From NCBI GenBank assembly GCA_018715045.1, contig DVMH01000015.1:1-58307 (forward strand): a stretch of DNA of 58,307 nucleotides. The letters run 5' to 3'. This DNA is from Candidatus Avidehalobacter gallistercoris. Its GTDB lineage: Bacteria; Bacillota; Dehalobacteriia; UBA4068; UBA4997. The notes under the pieces are model-generated. The model did no database searches, was not told where the DNA came from, and worked only from the letters and a program-made list of their open reading frames with translations. A program made the translations under genes and the position numbers. Shown in pieces: positions 2,211-45,475 of the stretch. Position 1 is the stretch's first letter, and each line of letters opens with the position of its first letter.

Positions 2211-2888
2211 ATGCGTTTACAAGCGGGCAGGTTATTGTGTGACGACACGGTGTTGGCGCTGCTCGCGGGGCAGCCTCCCAAAAGCGAACTGCTGCTTCAG
2301 GCGGTGTCCGGCTCGTCATATTTGGCGGCGGCGGACGGCGGTGCGGCTATAGCGCTTTCGGTGGGGCGCCGGCCCGATTTGCTGATTGGCGATTTTGATT
2401 CGCTTTCGGCGGCACGTCTGGCTGAGTGTCGAGAGGCCGGGTGTGAAATTCTGACCCTGCCTGCGGCCAAGGATCTGACCGACGGTGAATTCCTGCTGCA
2501 AACACTTTATGAACGCGGCTGGCGGCGCTTTCTGATACTGGGGGCGTTGGGCGGCAGGATTGATCAAATGCTGGCTAATATCTCCTGCGCGGAGAAACTG
2601 GCGCGTGAAGAGGCGGAAGTTTTGCTGATCCATGACGACGTGTTGCTTTGCCCGCTTTATGCCGAAAATGAGCCGCGGGAGCTTACATTGTATGGCTTTG
2701 GGGGTAAAACGCTTTCATTGCTGTCGCTCAGCGAGGTTTGCGATAAGATAGAGCTTTCCGGTTTCGAGTATTCGCTTAACGGAACGCTTGCGAGGCGGCA
2801 GACGCTGGGTATCAGCAACGTAGTACGGTCGGAGGCGGCGACGATTCGCCTGACAGGCGGCAGCCTGCTGGTTTGTCTTAATTTATAA
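2211..2888 (+). CDS. thiN: Thiamine pyrophosphokinase
   Basis: A 225-residue enzyme that transfers pyrophosphate from ATP to thiamine to make thiamine diphosphate in the cytosol. The N-terminal catalytic part shows the family signatures AADGGA (about 44-49), PDLLIGDFDS (about 59-68) and KDLTDGE (about 90-96), then LGGRIDQMLAN. The C-terminal beta-sandwich that binds thiamine carries the expected hydrophobic strands and a TLGISN motif. AGAGGGG precedes the ATG, and a -10-like TATAAT lies at 2173-2178. In Firmicutes this gene often follows rpe/rsgA; here it starts a short plus-strand group. No TPP riboswitch is visible upstream. Confidence 0.9.
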   Translation: MRLQAGRLLCDDTVLALLAGQPPKSELLLQAVSGSSYLAAADGGAAIALSVGRRPDLLIGDFDSLSAARLAECREAGCEILTLPAAKDLTDGEFLLQTLYERGWRRFLILGALGGRIDQMLANISCAEKLAREEAEVLLIHDDVLLCPLYAENEPRELTLYGFGGKTLSLLSLSEVCDKIELSGFEYSLNGTLARRQTLGISNVVRSEAATIRLTGGSLLVCLNL

Positions 2889-3965: not shown

Positions 3966-4607
3966 ATGATTCGTAAATTCACGATAGACGAGGACATTTT
4001 GTTGGATGACGCTAACCCGGCAGTGACCACGGTGGGTGTATCCAACCACCATGTGCATTTGTGTCAGGCCGATATGGATAAGCTTTTTGGCCCGGGTTAC
4101 TCGCTGCATCCCAAAAAGAAGCTGACACAGCCGGGGCAGTTTGCCGCCGAAGAGACACTGACAGTCATTGGCTCTAAGGGCATGATCGAAAACGTGCGGA
4201 TACTGGGGCCGCTTCGTGCGGAAACCCAGGTGGAGCTGGCTGAGACGGAGGCGCGTCTGGCGGGTATCAAAGCCCTGTTGCGGGATTCGGGGGATTTAGA
4301 GGGAACGTATGGCTGTATTCTCCTTGGACCGAATGGGTATATAACTATTGACCATGGCGTTATCTGTGCCGTAACGCATCTGCACCTTTCCGATGAGGAG
4401 GCCGCGCCGTTGGGCATCAAAGATCATCAGCGGGTTGATATCTTCATTAAAACCGGCGATAAAGCTGGCTGTCTGTTCAATATACCAGCGCGTGTGGGCA
4501 AAATGCACGCCAAGGATCTGCATATCGACACTGACGCCGCTAATGCATTCAAAATCACGGCAGAATCACGGGCGATTGTGCTGCTGAACGAATGTAAGAC
4601 GGAGTAA
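3966..4607 (+). CDS. pduL: Phosphate propanoyltransferase / phosphotransacylase (PduL family)
   Basis: A 213-residue enzyme interconverting acyl-CoA and acyl phosphate (acetyl- or propanoyl-). The PduL fold is indicated by the N-terminal VSNHHVHL motif (about residues 24-31), the central CAVTHLHLS histidine pair (about 138-146) and the late MHAKDLHID segment, which together supply metal-ligand histidines. There is no microcompartment encapsulation peptide or shell gene nearby, so this is more likely a housekeeping PtaC-type enzyme for acetate or propionate energy metabolism than a bacterial-microcompartment enzyme. The start at 3966 is preferred over the in-frame ATG at 3948 because GGAGG lies in the right place only for the former. 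Confidence 0.88.
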   Translation: MIRKFTIDEDILLDDANPAVTTVGVSNHHVHLCQADMDKLFGPGYSLHPKKKLTQPGQFAAEETLTVIGSKGMIENVRILGPLRAETQVELAETEARLAGIKALLRDSGDLEGTYGCILLGPNGYITIDHGVICAVTHLHLSDEEAAPLGIKDHQRVDIFIKTGDKAGCLFNIPARVGKMHAKDLHIDTDAANAFKITAESRAIVLLNECKTE

Positions 4608-4624
4608 TAAAAACCAAGTTTAGC

Positions 4625-4661
4625 AAAAAAAAGCCGCCTGCCTGGCAGACGGCTTTTTTTT
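4625..4661. terminator. Bidirectional terminator between pduL and DUF378 gene
   Basis: Stem AAGCCG-CTGCC / GGCAG-CGGCTT with A8 on the left and T8 on the right. It sits between two convergent genes and can end both transcripts. Confidence 0.85.
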
Positions 4662-4680
4662 GCATTGATTCCGGCGTTTT

Positions 4681-4896
4681 TCAGGCGGTCAGTCTGTCGC
4701 GCCGGAAGAAGAAACTGATGACGTACAGGCCGGCCAGCCCCACCAGCGCAAATATGCAGCGGCTGATGACCGAAGCTGCTCCGCCGAACAGCGCGCCCAC
4801 CAGGTCATAGTTGAAAAAGCCGACCAGACCCCAGTTCACCGCGCCTACAACCACCAGAATATGCGCGATGTAGTCGATGGCGTTTAATTTCAGCAT
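4681..4896 (-). CDS. DUF378 family small membrane protein (YuzA-like)
   Basis: 71 residues, two hydrophobic helices (about 8-30 and 40-62) joined by a short loop, ending in a basic tail FFRRDRL. The pattern AIDYIAHILVVVGAVNWGLVGFF is characteristic of DUF378. Function is unknown. AGGAGG precedes the ATG. The protein is integral to the inner membrane by prediction. Confidence 0.85.
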   Translation of the reverse strand: MLKLNAIDYIAHILVVVGAVNWGLVGFFNYDLVGALFGGAASVISRCIFALVGLAGLYVISFFFRRDRLTA

Positions 4897-41142: not shown

Positions 41143-41290
41143 TGTAATTTTTTCTCTGATATTGATAATAGTCGCCTGCCTGTATTTTGGGCAGTACCAG
41201 GGAAAGTTCTCTATTTCTGTATTTTTGCTGATTTTATTGTGCTTTTTCAAGACAAACATGACAAAGCAGTCGCTCTGTTTTAGTTCCCAT
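41140..41290 (-). pseudogene. Decayed Cys-rich KTR domain gene
   Basis: On the minus strand one frame ends NTEIENFPWYCPKYRQATIINIREKIT, which matches the second half of transposon Cys-rich KTR proteins except that the last knuckle cysteine is Tyr (CPKY for CPKC). The first knuckle CHVC is found a few bases upstream but in another frame. So a frameshift and a ligand substitution have disabled it. It lies directly after the methyltransferase gene. Confidence 0.55.
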
Positions 41291-42068
41291 TGTTGTTCTT
41301 TTCTCCAATTATCATGATCCAACGCTGATTAAAATAGATTTCCCCATTTTGTTGGTATGGCTTAAAGCCTGTTAATCCATGGCCATTTATTTCATCAGTA
41401 AGGCGTTTCGATATATCGGCGGATAGTTTCGCAGGAGTATTTGTAAGCGCAAGCCAGGCAGATAATGAAACGGGAAGTTCTGTGTGGTCTATTGTCATAA
41501 TAGGCAAGCGATTCTCTAGGAACATTTCTGTAAATTCTTCCTCGTTCAAATTACGCATATGCGAGGGATCGCGCAGGTTTTCTATTTCATCTTCTGTATT
41601 ACGCAATGTTTCTTCGGCTGCTTCCATGTCAATGATAACCAGCCTGCCGCCTGTTTGCAAGACCCTTGCCATTTCTGAAAAACAGCGTTTCGGATTGGCG
41701 AAATGATGAAAAGCAAGGCGGGAGATTACAATGTTAAAGCTGTTATCTGAAAATGGCAATTCCCCGGCGTCACCTTGCACAAAGTCCATATTCTCCAATC
41801 CTTGTTTTCCGGCCTTCTTTTTTCCCACAGCAAGCATAGCTGTTGTCATATCAAGGCAAGTCACGCTTTTCACAAACGGGGCAAGAGAACGCCCGCAGAT
41901 ACAAGTTCCTGCCGCCACCTCTAAAACGGTATCCGATTTTTGAGGATTGACACACGAAACAATATGATTCAAGTATTCTTGCTTTGTAAAATTCATTGAG
42001 TCTGTTTCAAAGTTCTTTGCCTGCTCAGTAAAGGATTTTTGTATTGTTTTTGCATTTGATGAAATCAT
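41280..42068 (-). CDS. Class I SAM-dependent methyltransferase
   Basis: 262 residues. SAM-binding motif I is VLEVAAGTCICGRSLA (about 48-63), with the acidic motif II in VTCLDMTTAML, then VQGDAGELPFSDNSFNIVISRLAFHHF, in the UbiE/type-11 style. The substrate is unknown; small-molecule methylation is likely. Its ATG overlaps the stop codon that ogt would have if its reading frame were restored (ATGA), showing an original operon. Plausible AAAGGAAC upstream. Confidence 0.85.
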   Translation of the reverse strand: MISSNAKTIQKSFTEQAKNFETDSMNFTKQEYLNHIVSCVNPQKSDTVLEVAAGTCICGRSLAPFVKSVTCLDMTTAMLAVGKKKAGKQGLENMDFVQGDAGELPFSDNSFNIVISRLAFHHFANPKRCFSEMARVLQTGGRLVIIDMEAAEETLRNTEDEIENLRDPSHMRNLNEEEFTEMFLENRLPIMTIDHTELPVSLSAWLALTNTPAKLSADISKRLTDEINGHGLTGFKPYQQNGEIYFNQRWIMIIGEKNNNGN

Positions 42069-42578
42069 AAGGCTGTTCCTTTCTTTGGTCCGAAAAATGA
42101 GGACATATCAGCTTTTTCCAATATAAGTAACTGTACTTTTTTCAATGCCGCCGGCATACCCTGTTAGGCTTCCGTCCGCACCGGCAACACGATGACAAGG
42201 AATAATGAGGTAAATGGAATTATGGCTCACAGCGCCGCTGGCAGCCTGTACAGATATTTTAAGAAGCCCTTTTGGCTTTGCTATTCTTTTGGTAATTTCA
42301 CCGCAGGTCATTGTTTTTCCAAACGGAATGATCAGCATAATTTCCCATACGGATTTACGAAATGGCGTTATCTGCATATATAGCGGCGGTGTGAAATCAG
42401 CTGCTTTACCGCTCAAATAAATATCCAGCCAACAGGCAGGCAGCTCAAATATTGGCCAAGACTTCTCTTCATGTTTTTTTCGGAAGTGTATTGCCAAAGT
42501 ATTTTTATCTGTCAAACCAAATCCCTGTAAGTTCTGTTCCGTTACTGGAAAGTGTGATACCTCACAAAGGCGAATCAT
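42065..42578 (-). pseudogene. ogt: Frameshifted methylated-DNA-protein cysteine methyltransferase (Ogt type)
   Basis: The frame as it stands gives 156 residues with the active-site PCHRV (about 127-131) and HTH helices, ending abnormally GYAGGIEKSTVTYIGKS at 42108. In another frame directly after the A6 tract (42142-42137) the expected family tail VQLLILEKADMSSFFGPKKGTAL continues to a TGA at 42067-42065 that overlaps the next gene. Thus the A-tract has lost or gained bases. The catalytic cysteine is upstream of the lesion, so residual activity is possible but the tail is altered. The normal role is direct removal of O6-alkylguanine. Confidence 0.8.
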
Positions 42579-42601
42579 AGTGATATGTATAGGCCATAAG
42601 T

Positions 42602-42955
42602 TTATACTTCCAAATATTCATCAGAGTCAGCAGGCGCTTCTGTTCTGTCAGTCATTGTATAGGTGCGGACAGGCGTTGCAACTGTGATTTTGTAGTCTGC
42701 AAAATCGTTCATTCTCCCGTGCTTTTGTGCCATACGGTGTGCGGCAAAATTACGCCATTTTGAAACACATGCCTCATTTTCCCATACGGACATACTTAGC
42801 AGTTTCCCCTCGGTAGCAAGGGAAGAAAAACGCTCTGAGCGAATGAATCCTTCCGCTTTCACAAGGCTGTCTTTCAGGAAACCTGCCATTTTCAAATAGT
42901 CATCCATTTTACCGCTTTTAACGGTCACTTCAAATAATACGATAATGTTACTCAT
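42602..42955 (-). CDS. ABM-fold putative quinol monooxygenase
   Basis: 117 residues. The dimeric alpha/beta barrel ABM pattern is visible: IIVLFEVTVKSGKMDDYLKM, EGFIRSERFSSLATEGKLLSMSVWENEACVSKWRNFAAHR. Family members oxidise quinols or polyketide-like compounds without cofactors, and some degrade haem; the role here is unknown. AGGAGG precedes the ATG. It lies between two disabled alkylation-repair genes and looks intact. Confidence 0.75.
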   Translation of the reverse strand: MSNIIVLFEVTVKSGKMDDYLKMAGFLKDSLVKAEGFIRSERFSSLATEGKLLSMSVWENEACVSKWRNFAAHRMAQKHGRMNDFADYKITVATPVRTYTMTDRTEAPADSDEYLEV

Positions 42956-43031
42956 TTATTTTTCCTCCTGTGATTGATTGATAAATTCTGGCTGATAGCC
43001 CGGCCAGCATATCATATGATTTTCTTTGTTT

Positions 43032-43590
43032 TCACGCCAAATGGAAATCTACCGTCAGCCAAGCTATCCCTGTTTGGGATTGCCTGCAATTTTTTGCCTG
43101 TTCATTTTTTGTTCTTCTTTTCAGAGGGGGATATTGCATTTCAGGTATTGCGCTGTATGTTGCCACCCCAAAGTGCAGGCTTGCCACACTGGAATATGGG
43201 CTTAATCATTTGCGGTATTTTTCAAACAATTTACAGGCGATTTTTCGATGATGATATACCATACGCATATCATGCAAAATGGCTAAATCTATGATACAGT
43301 CTGCCTTTTTCAAAATCATCCCCAAAGACTGTAAGCGGTTTGTTCCGGCAGAAAGAATGGTATCAGCATTTACTTCATCAAGATTATCCTGCATTTTCTG
43401 CCAGATTGTTGCTTGGGTCTTTGTAGAAATCTGTTGACCGATAATGTGATGAACAACCGAAAAAATCGCTGTCAATCTCACGCTCGATTTTGCCAATTCT
43501 ATCAATCGCTTCGCCAAATCGCATGTACTTTTTCTTTAAAGATTCGGTTGCGTTTTCATCATGCTTAAAGGATGTCCTTGTTTTGGCGCA
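43032..43590 (-). pseudogene. Shattered DNA-3-methyladenine glycosylase (AlkA/HhH-GPD family)
   Basis: Segments of one protein appear in order on the minus strand: YMRFGEAIDRIGKIEREIDSDFF, then after a frameshift at an A6/T6 run (43460-43465) VVHHIIGQQISTKTQATIWQKM, then a deletion near 43290-43295, then DLAILHDMRMVYHHRKI and KLFEKYRK, a TGA at 43208-43206, and LSPYSSVASLHF...AIPEM. The missing internal piece should contain the helix-hairpin-helix LKGIGVWTAE. At least three lesions; non-functional. The normal role is excision of alkylated bases. Confidence 0.75.
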
Positions 43591-43842
43591 TGCACTGACT
43601 GGGAAATCGCTTTATAATATAATGTTATCATAATTTTAGATGGCATAATATTAAAATATCGTCTAATACTATTACAATATATCCAAACAAGGCTGAATCG
43701 AAATGAAAAACACACAAAACGTTTACATAAATTATGTCAACCTTAATGCAGATGCAGACTTTTCATATCTTGTGCTTGATGTTATCCTTAATAATTTTAC
43801 GGCCGCATCTTTCATATTCACGCCTTATTGTAATAGTACTAT
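43591..43842. other. Intergenic, A+T rich
   Basis: A 49-codon plus-strand frame at 43703-43852 (contains NADADFSYLVLDVILNN) has only a weak ribosome site and runs into the MATE 3' end. I do not recognise it. No hairpins of note. Confidence 0.3.
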
Positions 43843-45189
43843 TCATATATAGTCTTCCTGGATTTTACTATCTGAGTCTCTTTTTTGCTTTTTCATGAGA
43901 ACAAGTAATGTGACGGCTGTGATTGCTGTAAGAACTTCACTGGCGGAATGGCAAACCCACACTGCCTCACTACCGAAAATCAATGGCAAAATAGCAATCA
44001 TAATTGGCGGCCAAATTACACTACGCGATAGAGATATTGTCAGTGCCTTGCTTGTTCGTTCATTTGCCTGCCAGTACGAAATCATTAAAATATTAAATCC
44101 GGCAAGGAAGAAACCAGAAAAGTAAGGCAGGCTTTTGCTTTCCATAAAATTGATTAGCTCCGCATCGCCCGGGTTAAAAATGGAGAAGAAATCACGGGAG
44201 AAGAAAATAAGCAATATATAGCATAAAATTCCCAGTGACAGAAATATTTTGATGGAGAAGTTAAGCAAATCGTTACTTCGTTTTTCTTCACCGGTTCCCA
44301 TAAAGTAACTGAATACTGGTTGTAATCCCTGCGCCATGCCAAGGAATAGCGTCAAGATAATTAACATCAAATAACCAATTACAAGGTAAGCTGCAAGTCC
44401 GATTTCTCCAAAGCCATAATGCACGATGGCAAAATTATATACGAATGTAATAATGCCAATCGTAAATTCCATAATAAAGGAGGGAAAGCCAAATACATAA
44501 ATCGAACACAGATTGCGCCATTTGAATTTGAATTTTGTCAGGTATAAATCTCCTCGTTTAAAAAGAAAATGAGGGAGCATGATCATGGTGCTAAAAATGG
44601 GACCAAGAGCTGTTGCCAATGCTGCACCGGCGATCCCCATATTCATAGGATACATAAAAACATAATCCAAAATAATATTTGATACTGAGCCAAACATCAG
44701 GGCAAACATAGCCAGTTTCGGACGGTTATCGTTACGCACCAGACCGCTTAACAAGAAACTGAAAAGCAGGAATGGCGAAAAGGTAACAATGTACCACATA
44801 TAGCTGATTGCCTCGTCATGGATTGCTGGCGTTGACCCAAGCAGTTCAGCCAAAGGGTGAAGACATATATTTCCTAACACACAGATCAGCACACCCATCA
44901 CAGCAGTACATAGAACAGACAGGCTAAAAATATTACGGGCCTTATCCTTTTCTCTTTGCCCAAGATGAGAAGAAATCATAACGCCCGCGCCTGTGGCAAC
45001 CGCCATGGATAAGGCAATTAGTATTTCTACCAAAGGAACAGAAACGGCTGCCGCCGCCATTGCATCACGACCGAGCCGATTGCCAATGAATACGCCGTCA
45101 ACAATCATATAAACCGAGTTGAACAATAGCCCGATCATTTGTGGCACGGCATATTTGGCAAATAAAGCATATGATTTGCCTTCGTACAT
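43843..45189 (-). CDS. MATE family efflux transporter
   Basis: 448 residues with about 12 transmembrane helices. N-terminal YAVPQMIGLLFNSVYMIVDGVFIGNRLGRDAMAAAAVSVP and the repeat block GFGEIGLAAYLVIGYLMLIILTLFLGMAQGLQPVFSYFMGTG are MATE signatures. Distinct from the pump at 16.3-17.6 kb and closer to the VmrA/DinF-like branch in its spacing, though I am unsure of the subclass. AAGGAGG precedes ATG 45189. The gene has an unusual 250-nt leader with two intrinsic terminators and a small frame, suggesting control by premature termination. No regulator gene is adjacent on that side. Confidence 0.88.
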   Translation of the reverse strand: MYEGKSYALFAKYAVPQMIGLLFNSVYMIVDGVFIGNRLGRDAMAAAAVSVPLVEILIALSMAVATGAGVMISSHLGQREKDKARNIFSLSVLCTAVMGVLICVLGNICLHPLAELLGSTPAIHDEAISYMWYIVTFSPFLLFSFLLSGLVRNDNRPKLAMFALMFGSVSNIILDYVFMYPMNMGIAGAALATALGPIFSTMIMLPHFLFKRGDLYLTKFKFKWRNLCSIYVFGFPSFIMEFTIGIITFVYNFAIVHYGFGEIGLAAYLVIGYLMLIILTLFLGMAQGLQPVFSYFMGTGEEKRSNDLLNFSIKIFLSLGILCYILLIFFSRDFFSIFNPGDAELINFMESKSLPYFSGFFLAGFNILMISYWQANERTSKALTISLSRSVIWPPIMIAILPLIFGSEAVWVCHSASEVLTAITAVTLLVLMKKQKRDSDSKIQEDYI

Positions 45190-45212
45190 GATACCCAAAC
45201 CTCCTTGCAAAT

Positions 45213-45242
45213 AAAAAAGCCTGCGTCATGTGTAACGCAGGC
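45213..45242 (-). terminator. Leader terminator 2, just before the MATE start
   Basis: Minus strand GCCTGCGT/ACGCAGGC (45242-45235 and 45226-45219), 8-base loop, then T6 (45218-45213). It ends 24 nt before the start codon, so full expression of the pump requires read-through. Confidence 0.85.
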
Positions 45243-45301
45243 CTACTACACAATAGAATGAAACCCCGGCGGGTTGATTTTATTTTACCATTCTATTCTA
45301 T

Positions 45302-45343
45302 TCAAATTTTAATGTTCACAGTTTCTTTTTTTACGAGTTCCAT
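45302..45343 (-). CDS. Candidate 13-residue leader peptide
   Basis: ATG at 45343, stop TGA at 45302; encodes MELVKKETVNIKI. GCGAGGG lies about 12 nt upstream. It lies between the two leader terminators. Translation of this frame could couple ribosome stalling by an antibiotic to read-through of the second hairpin. This is inference; no homolog is known to me. Confidence 0.4.
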   Translation of the reverse strand: MELVKKETVNIKI

Positions 45344-45364
45344 AGCTTCTTTTCCCTCGCCTAT

Positions 45365-45424
45365 AAAAAATAAAGCGCCTTATCTGCCATTCCTTTTTAA
45401 GCCTAACGGAATGGGATAAGACGC
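45365..45424 (-). terminator. Leader terminator 1, close to the transcription start
   Basis: Minus strand stem GCG-CTTATC-CATTCC / GGAATG-GATAAG-CGC (45424-45408 and 45393-45375) with small bulges, then TTTATTTTTT (45374-45365). It begins about 16 nt after the predicted start site. Confidence 0.8.
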
Positions 45425-45446
45425 GACCCGGCGGTCAATCATACTG

Positions 45447-45475
45447 AGTATAATGTATTTCAGGGCAAAAGTCAA
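45447..45475 (-). promoter_or_regulatory. Promoter of the MATE leader
   Basis: Minus strand TTGACT (45475-45470), 17-bp spacer, TATACT (45452-45447). A perfect ATACT-g-AGTAT dyad (45441-45451) overlaps the -10 and could bind a regulator. Confidence 0.75.

Follow-up and report, generated by a model that had tools for sequence, protein, structure and literature searches.

Two guanidine-IV-type riboswitch candidates in tandem ahead of a MATE exporter gene in a gut Dehalobacteriia genome

In the window analysed in this study, namely the whole stretch of 58,307 nucleotides from Candidatus Avidehalobacter gallistercoris, a MATE family efflux gene is preceded by 286 nt of the minus strand (from a sigma-70-type promoter to the gene) holding two intrinsic terminators, and the question raised is what allows transcription to reach the pump gene. 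The first-pass annotation had reported the promoter, both terminators and a repeated motif, CCGCCGGG, ahead of the MATE gene, all of which are present in the sequence. With reference to the comparisons given below, it is quite probable that this leader consists of tandem guanidine-IV-type transcription-termination riboswitches controlling the exporter. The minus-strand order is promoter, element 1, 13-codon ORF, element 2, AAGGAGG and MATE start, with the following features.

45447..45475, minus strand: sigma-70-type promoter TTGACT-17-TATACT, with a matching site ahead of element 1 in most homologues
45365..45441, minus strand: element 1, candidate guanidine-IV-type aptamer and terminator in the canonical layout
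45424..45437, minus strand: P1 hairpin of element 1, loop GCCG, kissing nucleotides GCC at 45432-45430, with compensatory changes
about 45375..45424, minus strand: P2 of element 1, doubling as terminator stem, with GGC at 45403-45401 in its loop
45374-45365, minus strand: T-rich tail after the terminator stem of element 1
45302..45343, minus strand: 13-codon ORF MELVKKETVNIKI, read from the alignment with L006 and the intact gene in L036, L027 and others
45207..45287, minus strand: element 2, candidate guanidine-IV-like aptamer with an overlapping antiterminator/terminator platform
45262..45275, minus strand: P1 hairpin of element 2, loop GCCG, kissing nucleotides GCC at 45270-45268
45229..45252, minus strand: P2 of element 2 (UGUGUA/UACACA), loop GGC at 45243-45241, G77 equivalent at 45236
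45213..45244, minus strand: terminator of element 2 (45244-45217, with T6), mutually exclusive with P2
45200..45206, minus strand: ribosome-binding site AAGGAGG of the MATE gene
43843..45189, start at 45189, minus strand: MATE family efflux gene, 448 aa (PF01554)

The AAGGAGG stands directly after element 2, and its distance from the T6, given earlier as 14 nt, is in fact 6 nt. The encoded protein is FepA/MepA-like, with a score below the curated cut-offs. The two copies of CCGCCGGG (45434-45427 and 45272-45265) each form the P1 hairpin (loop GCCG) of an RNA in which two hairpins kiss through their loops, the second loop being UAGGC. The folding energy of the leader lies 4.1 sd below that of shuffles, and in 15 of 20 homologues a promoter-like site of at least 10/12 occupies the corresponding position ahead of element 1, the figure for shuffles being 1.2%; a single-sequence terminator scan, which found 6 where 4.5 were expected, is unconvincing by itself. 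A protein search with the MATE sequence gave 33 loci, 58-93% identical with one exception at 31%, mostly from gut Clostridia MAGs and isolates. The upstream DNA of these relatives repeatedly carries the two elements, usually in the order promoter, element 1, NimA-like flavin gene, element 2 and MATE, and some of the loci (L028, L031, L034) have element 1 alone before MATE. When the window and L006, its near twin, were left out of the profiles, these still recovered element 1 (E=1.7e-15) and element 2 (E=6.1e-23) in the 58-kb window.

Among the 20 element-1 sequences of alignment A1, two-sided changes were found in 14 of 20 pairs, covering P1, P2 and the kissing pairs, and the kissing pairs are 100% complementary. 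The covariation score was 0.393, compared with 0.219 when shuffled and at most 0.141 in slid controls. The outer kissing pair itself covaries (GC 17, AU 3), and a hand-curated list drawn from the analysis outputs, comprising 49 element-1 and 22 element-2 copies, gave GC 36, AU 12 and GU 1 for element 1. For element 2, alignment A3 of 24 sequences showed a terminator that is 96% paired, with two-sided changes present, and a P2 that is 98% paired and changes on both sides at a single pair. All 22 curated copies have GC as the outer kissing pair, and since the kissing pairs are invariant, covariation gives no support for kissing in this element. A comparison with homologous MATE leaders, put forward as a check in the first-pass annotation and made here with about 30 relatives, bears out the structure, which is conserved and covaries, and fails to bear out the ORF, which is not conserved.

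Guanidine-IV riboswitches are described as two hairpins joined by a kissing loop (A29-U72 and C30-G71 in Clostridium botulinum), the G that lies six nt beyond G71 (Cbo G77, Lla G72) being critical. They act as ON switches by antitermination in which the ligand disrupts the terminator, and their partners include SugE, MATE and PnuC (PMC7736828, PMC11611296). Both elements of the leader most likely carry the core of this published class (mepA/GGAM-1), an assignment based on architecture, the spacing of key positions and the partner genes. The likeness extends to hairpin order, the three-pair kissing loop, the conserved loop and G positions, the U-rich terminator, the MATE, SugE and PnuC partners and the presumed ON-switch logic. 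The loops of P1 and P2 are complementary, as a kissing-loop pseudoknot requires, in every copy aligned for element 1 and for element 2, and the spacing fits in both (loop 1 [A/G]CC, loop 2 GG[U/C], position 77), as does the position before guanidine-associated genes (SugE, MATE, PnuC). A model built from element-1 copies only, R1, detects element 2 in the window (E=3.2e-5), and further matches were found before sugE (L074, L076, L113, L115), before PnuC (L119, L122, L142), and before NimA-like genes, MATE genes of a second family and a DUF1989 gene.

Four differences from the published class were noticed. A single gene is served by two copies in series; G-C takes the place of the A-U that forms the outer kissing pair in the C. 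botulinum example; the position of the critical G is A in element 1 (45396) and G in element 2 (45236); and P2 is extended into the terminator in element 1, as in the canonical layout, whereas the terminator of element 2 is a separate overlapping hairpin, for which reason element 2 is filed as a variant and not as a standard member. Given the A of element 1 and the platform of element 2, the leader as a whole is likewise classed as a variant. The use of GGC in place of GGU in loop 2 was considered as the mark of a new class and dropped, as GGC/GCC also occurs before sugE.

The first-pass annotation had recognised no described riboswitch class here; the published guanidine-IV core identified in both elements supersedes that statement, and the class is apparently missing from Rfam 15. 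A search of the leader with Rfam 15, at gathering and permissive thresholds, returned chance-level matches only; a guanidine-I control in L152 was found. Canonical copies are missed by it as well, so Rfam 15 seems to be without a model of the class, and leaders of this type are overlooked as a result. The guanidine-II riboswitch likewise has small paired hairpins with loop-loop contacts and senses guanidine, acting on translation, but the elements of the window are without its ACG loops. A regex motif scan ahead of sugE genes gave mostly noise, and among plasmid SugE genes the Paraclostridium one is preceded by guanidine-I and the Enterococcus one lacks a guanidine-IV-type element.

The 2020 guanidine-IV paper (of PMC7736828, PMC11611296) states that the class does not use the typical overlapping-terminator arrangement, and it is exactly this arrangement that element 2 appears to display. 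Its P2 and its terminator both need AGGCCUGCGU, so only one of them can form; the estimated hairpin energies in the window are -4.6 kcal/mol for P2 and -18.0 kcal/mol for the terminator, and in stepwise folding P2 forms ahead of the terminator. P2 sits outside the terminator or in its loop, hence its conservation is not explained by termination. No published description of such wiring was found in the incompletely searchable literature. Across 398 genomes of the phylum, an element-2 model gave the window as the only convincing match, the others resembling plain terminators, and a viral pattern scan for element 2 found none.

We propose that ligand binding, with guanidine or a small cation resembling it as the likeliest ligand, would stabilise the kissing-loop aptamer before the terminator is completed and so permit read-through. 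In element 1 the terminator would be the extended P2, as published for guanidine-IV, and element 2 would follow the conventional antiterminator arrangement, with AGGCCUGCGU held in the P2 loop giving the aptamer and the ON state, and the same nucleotides in the 5' arm of the terminator giving the OFF state. The ancestral two-gene operon most likely was element 1, NimA-like gene, element 2 and MATE, and deletion of the NimA-like first gene left the two elements in tandem, after which the polymerase would have to pass both before the pump gene. Judged from sequence, both switches should block the pump gene without ligand. From the earlier proposal, the comparisons favour a default OFF state of the pump, imposed by premature termination under RNA control and relieved when ligand permits read-through; what falls away is ribosome stalling on a leader peptide.

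The strongest competing explanation, which we regard as possible though clearly the less probable one, takes element 1 as a decaying relic and lets element 2 alone regulate, reached by leaky read-through or from another promoter. A G at position 77 is conserved in 46 of the 49 curated element-1 copies and in 22/22 of element 2; the A of the window is shared by element 1 of L006, and L013, with a shifted loop, is ambiguous there, all three being without the first gene. In two published guanidine-IV switches a G-to-C change at this site abolished the response (PMC7736828, PMC11611296), the base in the window's element 1 being A. A weak promoter-like site (9/12) also lies immediately upstream of element 2. 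Against decay, element 1 has kept its promoter, its P1, the complementarity of its kissing loops and a strong terminator intact, and tandem pairs with intact G77 occur in L020 and L023. Under the preferred reading, the G77A change probably gives element 1 a poor guanidine response or an altered specificity, which makes element 2 the more likely working sensor of the two.

Less probable still is that both elements are of the Gd4v kind and sense a ligand other than guanidine. Gd4v is an orphan variant of guanidine-IV, enriched in the gut, that occurs ahead of MATE genes as well but never before sugE, and its D1 is never G (PMC9788692). The overall architecture, the gut bacteria and the MATE partner are shared with the window, and element 1 resembles Gd4v in being without the conserved G if D1 corresponds to position 77; at this presumed D1 position, deduced from the text description, the bases are A in element 1 and G in element 2. 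Element 2 and nearly all curated element-1 copies nevertheless keep the G expected of guanidine-IV, and related elements precede sugE. The system of the window also has no transaminase partner, and the added hairpin of Gd4v, compared by its published description, does not appear in the leader folds. Gd4v is thus the less likely home for this leader. It is similarly doubtful that the tandem guanidine-IV-type switches would yield the pump only with both elements bound.

Two ordinary intrinsic terminators without any sensing, insulating the pump from upstream transcription, are very unlikely: both hairpins are good terminators, yet P1, the loop sequences and the P2 of element 2 are conserved though unneeded for termination, and similar elements stand before guanidine-related genes.

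The weakest explanation, leader-peptide attenuation, in which antibiotic-stalled ribosomes on the 13-codon ORF would alter folding and prevent termination, draws on an ORF with an upstream purine-rich site between the two terminators, and can practically be set aside by what this ORF turns out to be. It is present as a string, as the first-pass annotation had said, and by alignment it is the decayed, frameshifted 3' end left over from a deleted gene of NimA-like type (pyridoxamine-oxidase fold). L006 and the window share 90% identity in the pump region; relative to L006, about 120 nt that followed GAG and preceded GGA are missing from the window. The ORF falls in the former NimA-like 3' end (...KEAIELVKK...), in a frame displaced by one A. 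At the position of the window's ATG, L006 reads ATT, so the start codon is absent in the closest relative, whose NimA-like gene is internally deleted too. The site is occupied in most relatives by a full-length or differently deleted gene, the full-length one lying between both elements in many (L036, L027, others); L020 lost it independently, and a gap of about 20 nt between the elements of L023 leaves no room for the ORF. No conserved translated ORF was found in the homologous leaders, and as the ORF is a deletion scar, ribosome stalling on it is without support. The NimA-like gene belongs to PF12900 and scores about 200 bits with the NimABCDEF and NimIJ models, below cut-off.

Tandem pairs on one gene were found in the window, in L006 (with the gene remnant), in L020, in L023 and in G030:C199, thus in at least four loci besides the window. 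Two complete switches of the same class in series before one gene are familiar from the TPP, glycine and c-di-GMP riboswitches, but a 2022 review gives guanidine-IV among the classes not found in tandem and reports no guanidine riboswitch class in tandem with others (PMC9481103); no later report of guanidine-IV tandem pairs was found, the searchable literature being incomplete. If the proposed reading is true, the locus offers guanidine-IV switches in tandem, unseen in that 2022 survey (PMC9481103), together with an aptamer naturally rewired onto a different terminator and hence a clean pair for testing guanidine-IV antitermination. It would also connect guanidine-type chemistry with a MATE pump and with a flavin protein of NimA-like type, and would mean that a guanidine-riboswitch pump cassette has spread among distant gut bacteria.

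The GC content of the cassette is about 0.35-0.46, against 0.55 in its surroundings; eight genomes of the same genus gave no match to the leader, and the best matches lie in Lachnospiraceae-type genomes. Taken together, these observations indicate horizontal transfer, and the cassette was probably acquired in this way; a plasmid search for it found none. The AT-rich cassette spans window positions 41280-45475 and comprises MATE, ABM, MGMT-like and methyltransferase genes, and a short ORF at 43206-43517 with a sub-threshold HhH-GPD match is perhaps a gene fragment.

Several further arrangements were observed. In the window's own genome a DUF1989 gene, adjoined by a nitroreductase-like gene, is preceded by a guanidine-IV-type element of the canonical form (ACC/GGU, G77; L109, G000:C23:70377-70443, minus strand). 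The pair in G030:C199 (L155, about 4390-4697) consists of two element-1 copies about 150 nt apart, the gene beyond being cut by the contig end. L034 displays divergent guanidine-IV-type elements about 110 nt apart (2213-2293, minus strand, and 2407-2481, plus strand), one before MATE and the other before a deaminase-like gene, with azaaromatic (yjdF) and FMN riboswitches nearby. An element-2-type leader at L027:1634-1719 (minus strand) precedes a small SfLAP/LysE-like membrane protein in place of MATE, and a cytidylate kinase-like gene (PF13189) follows MATE in L006 (3844-4452) and L036 and lies nearby in L027.
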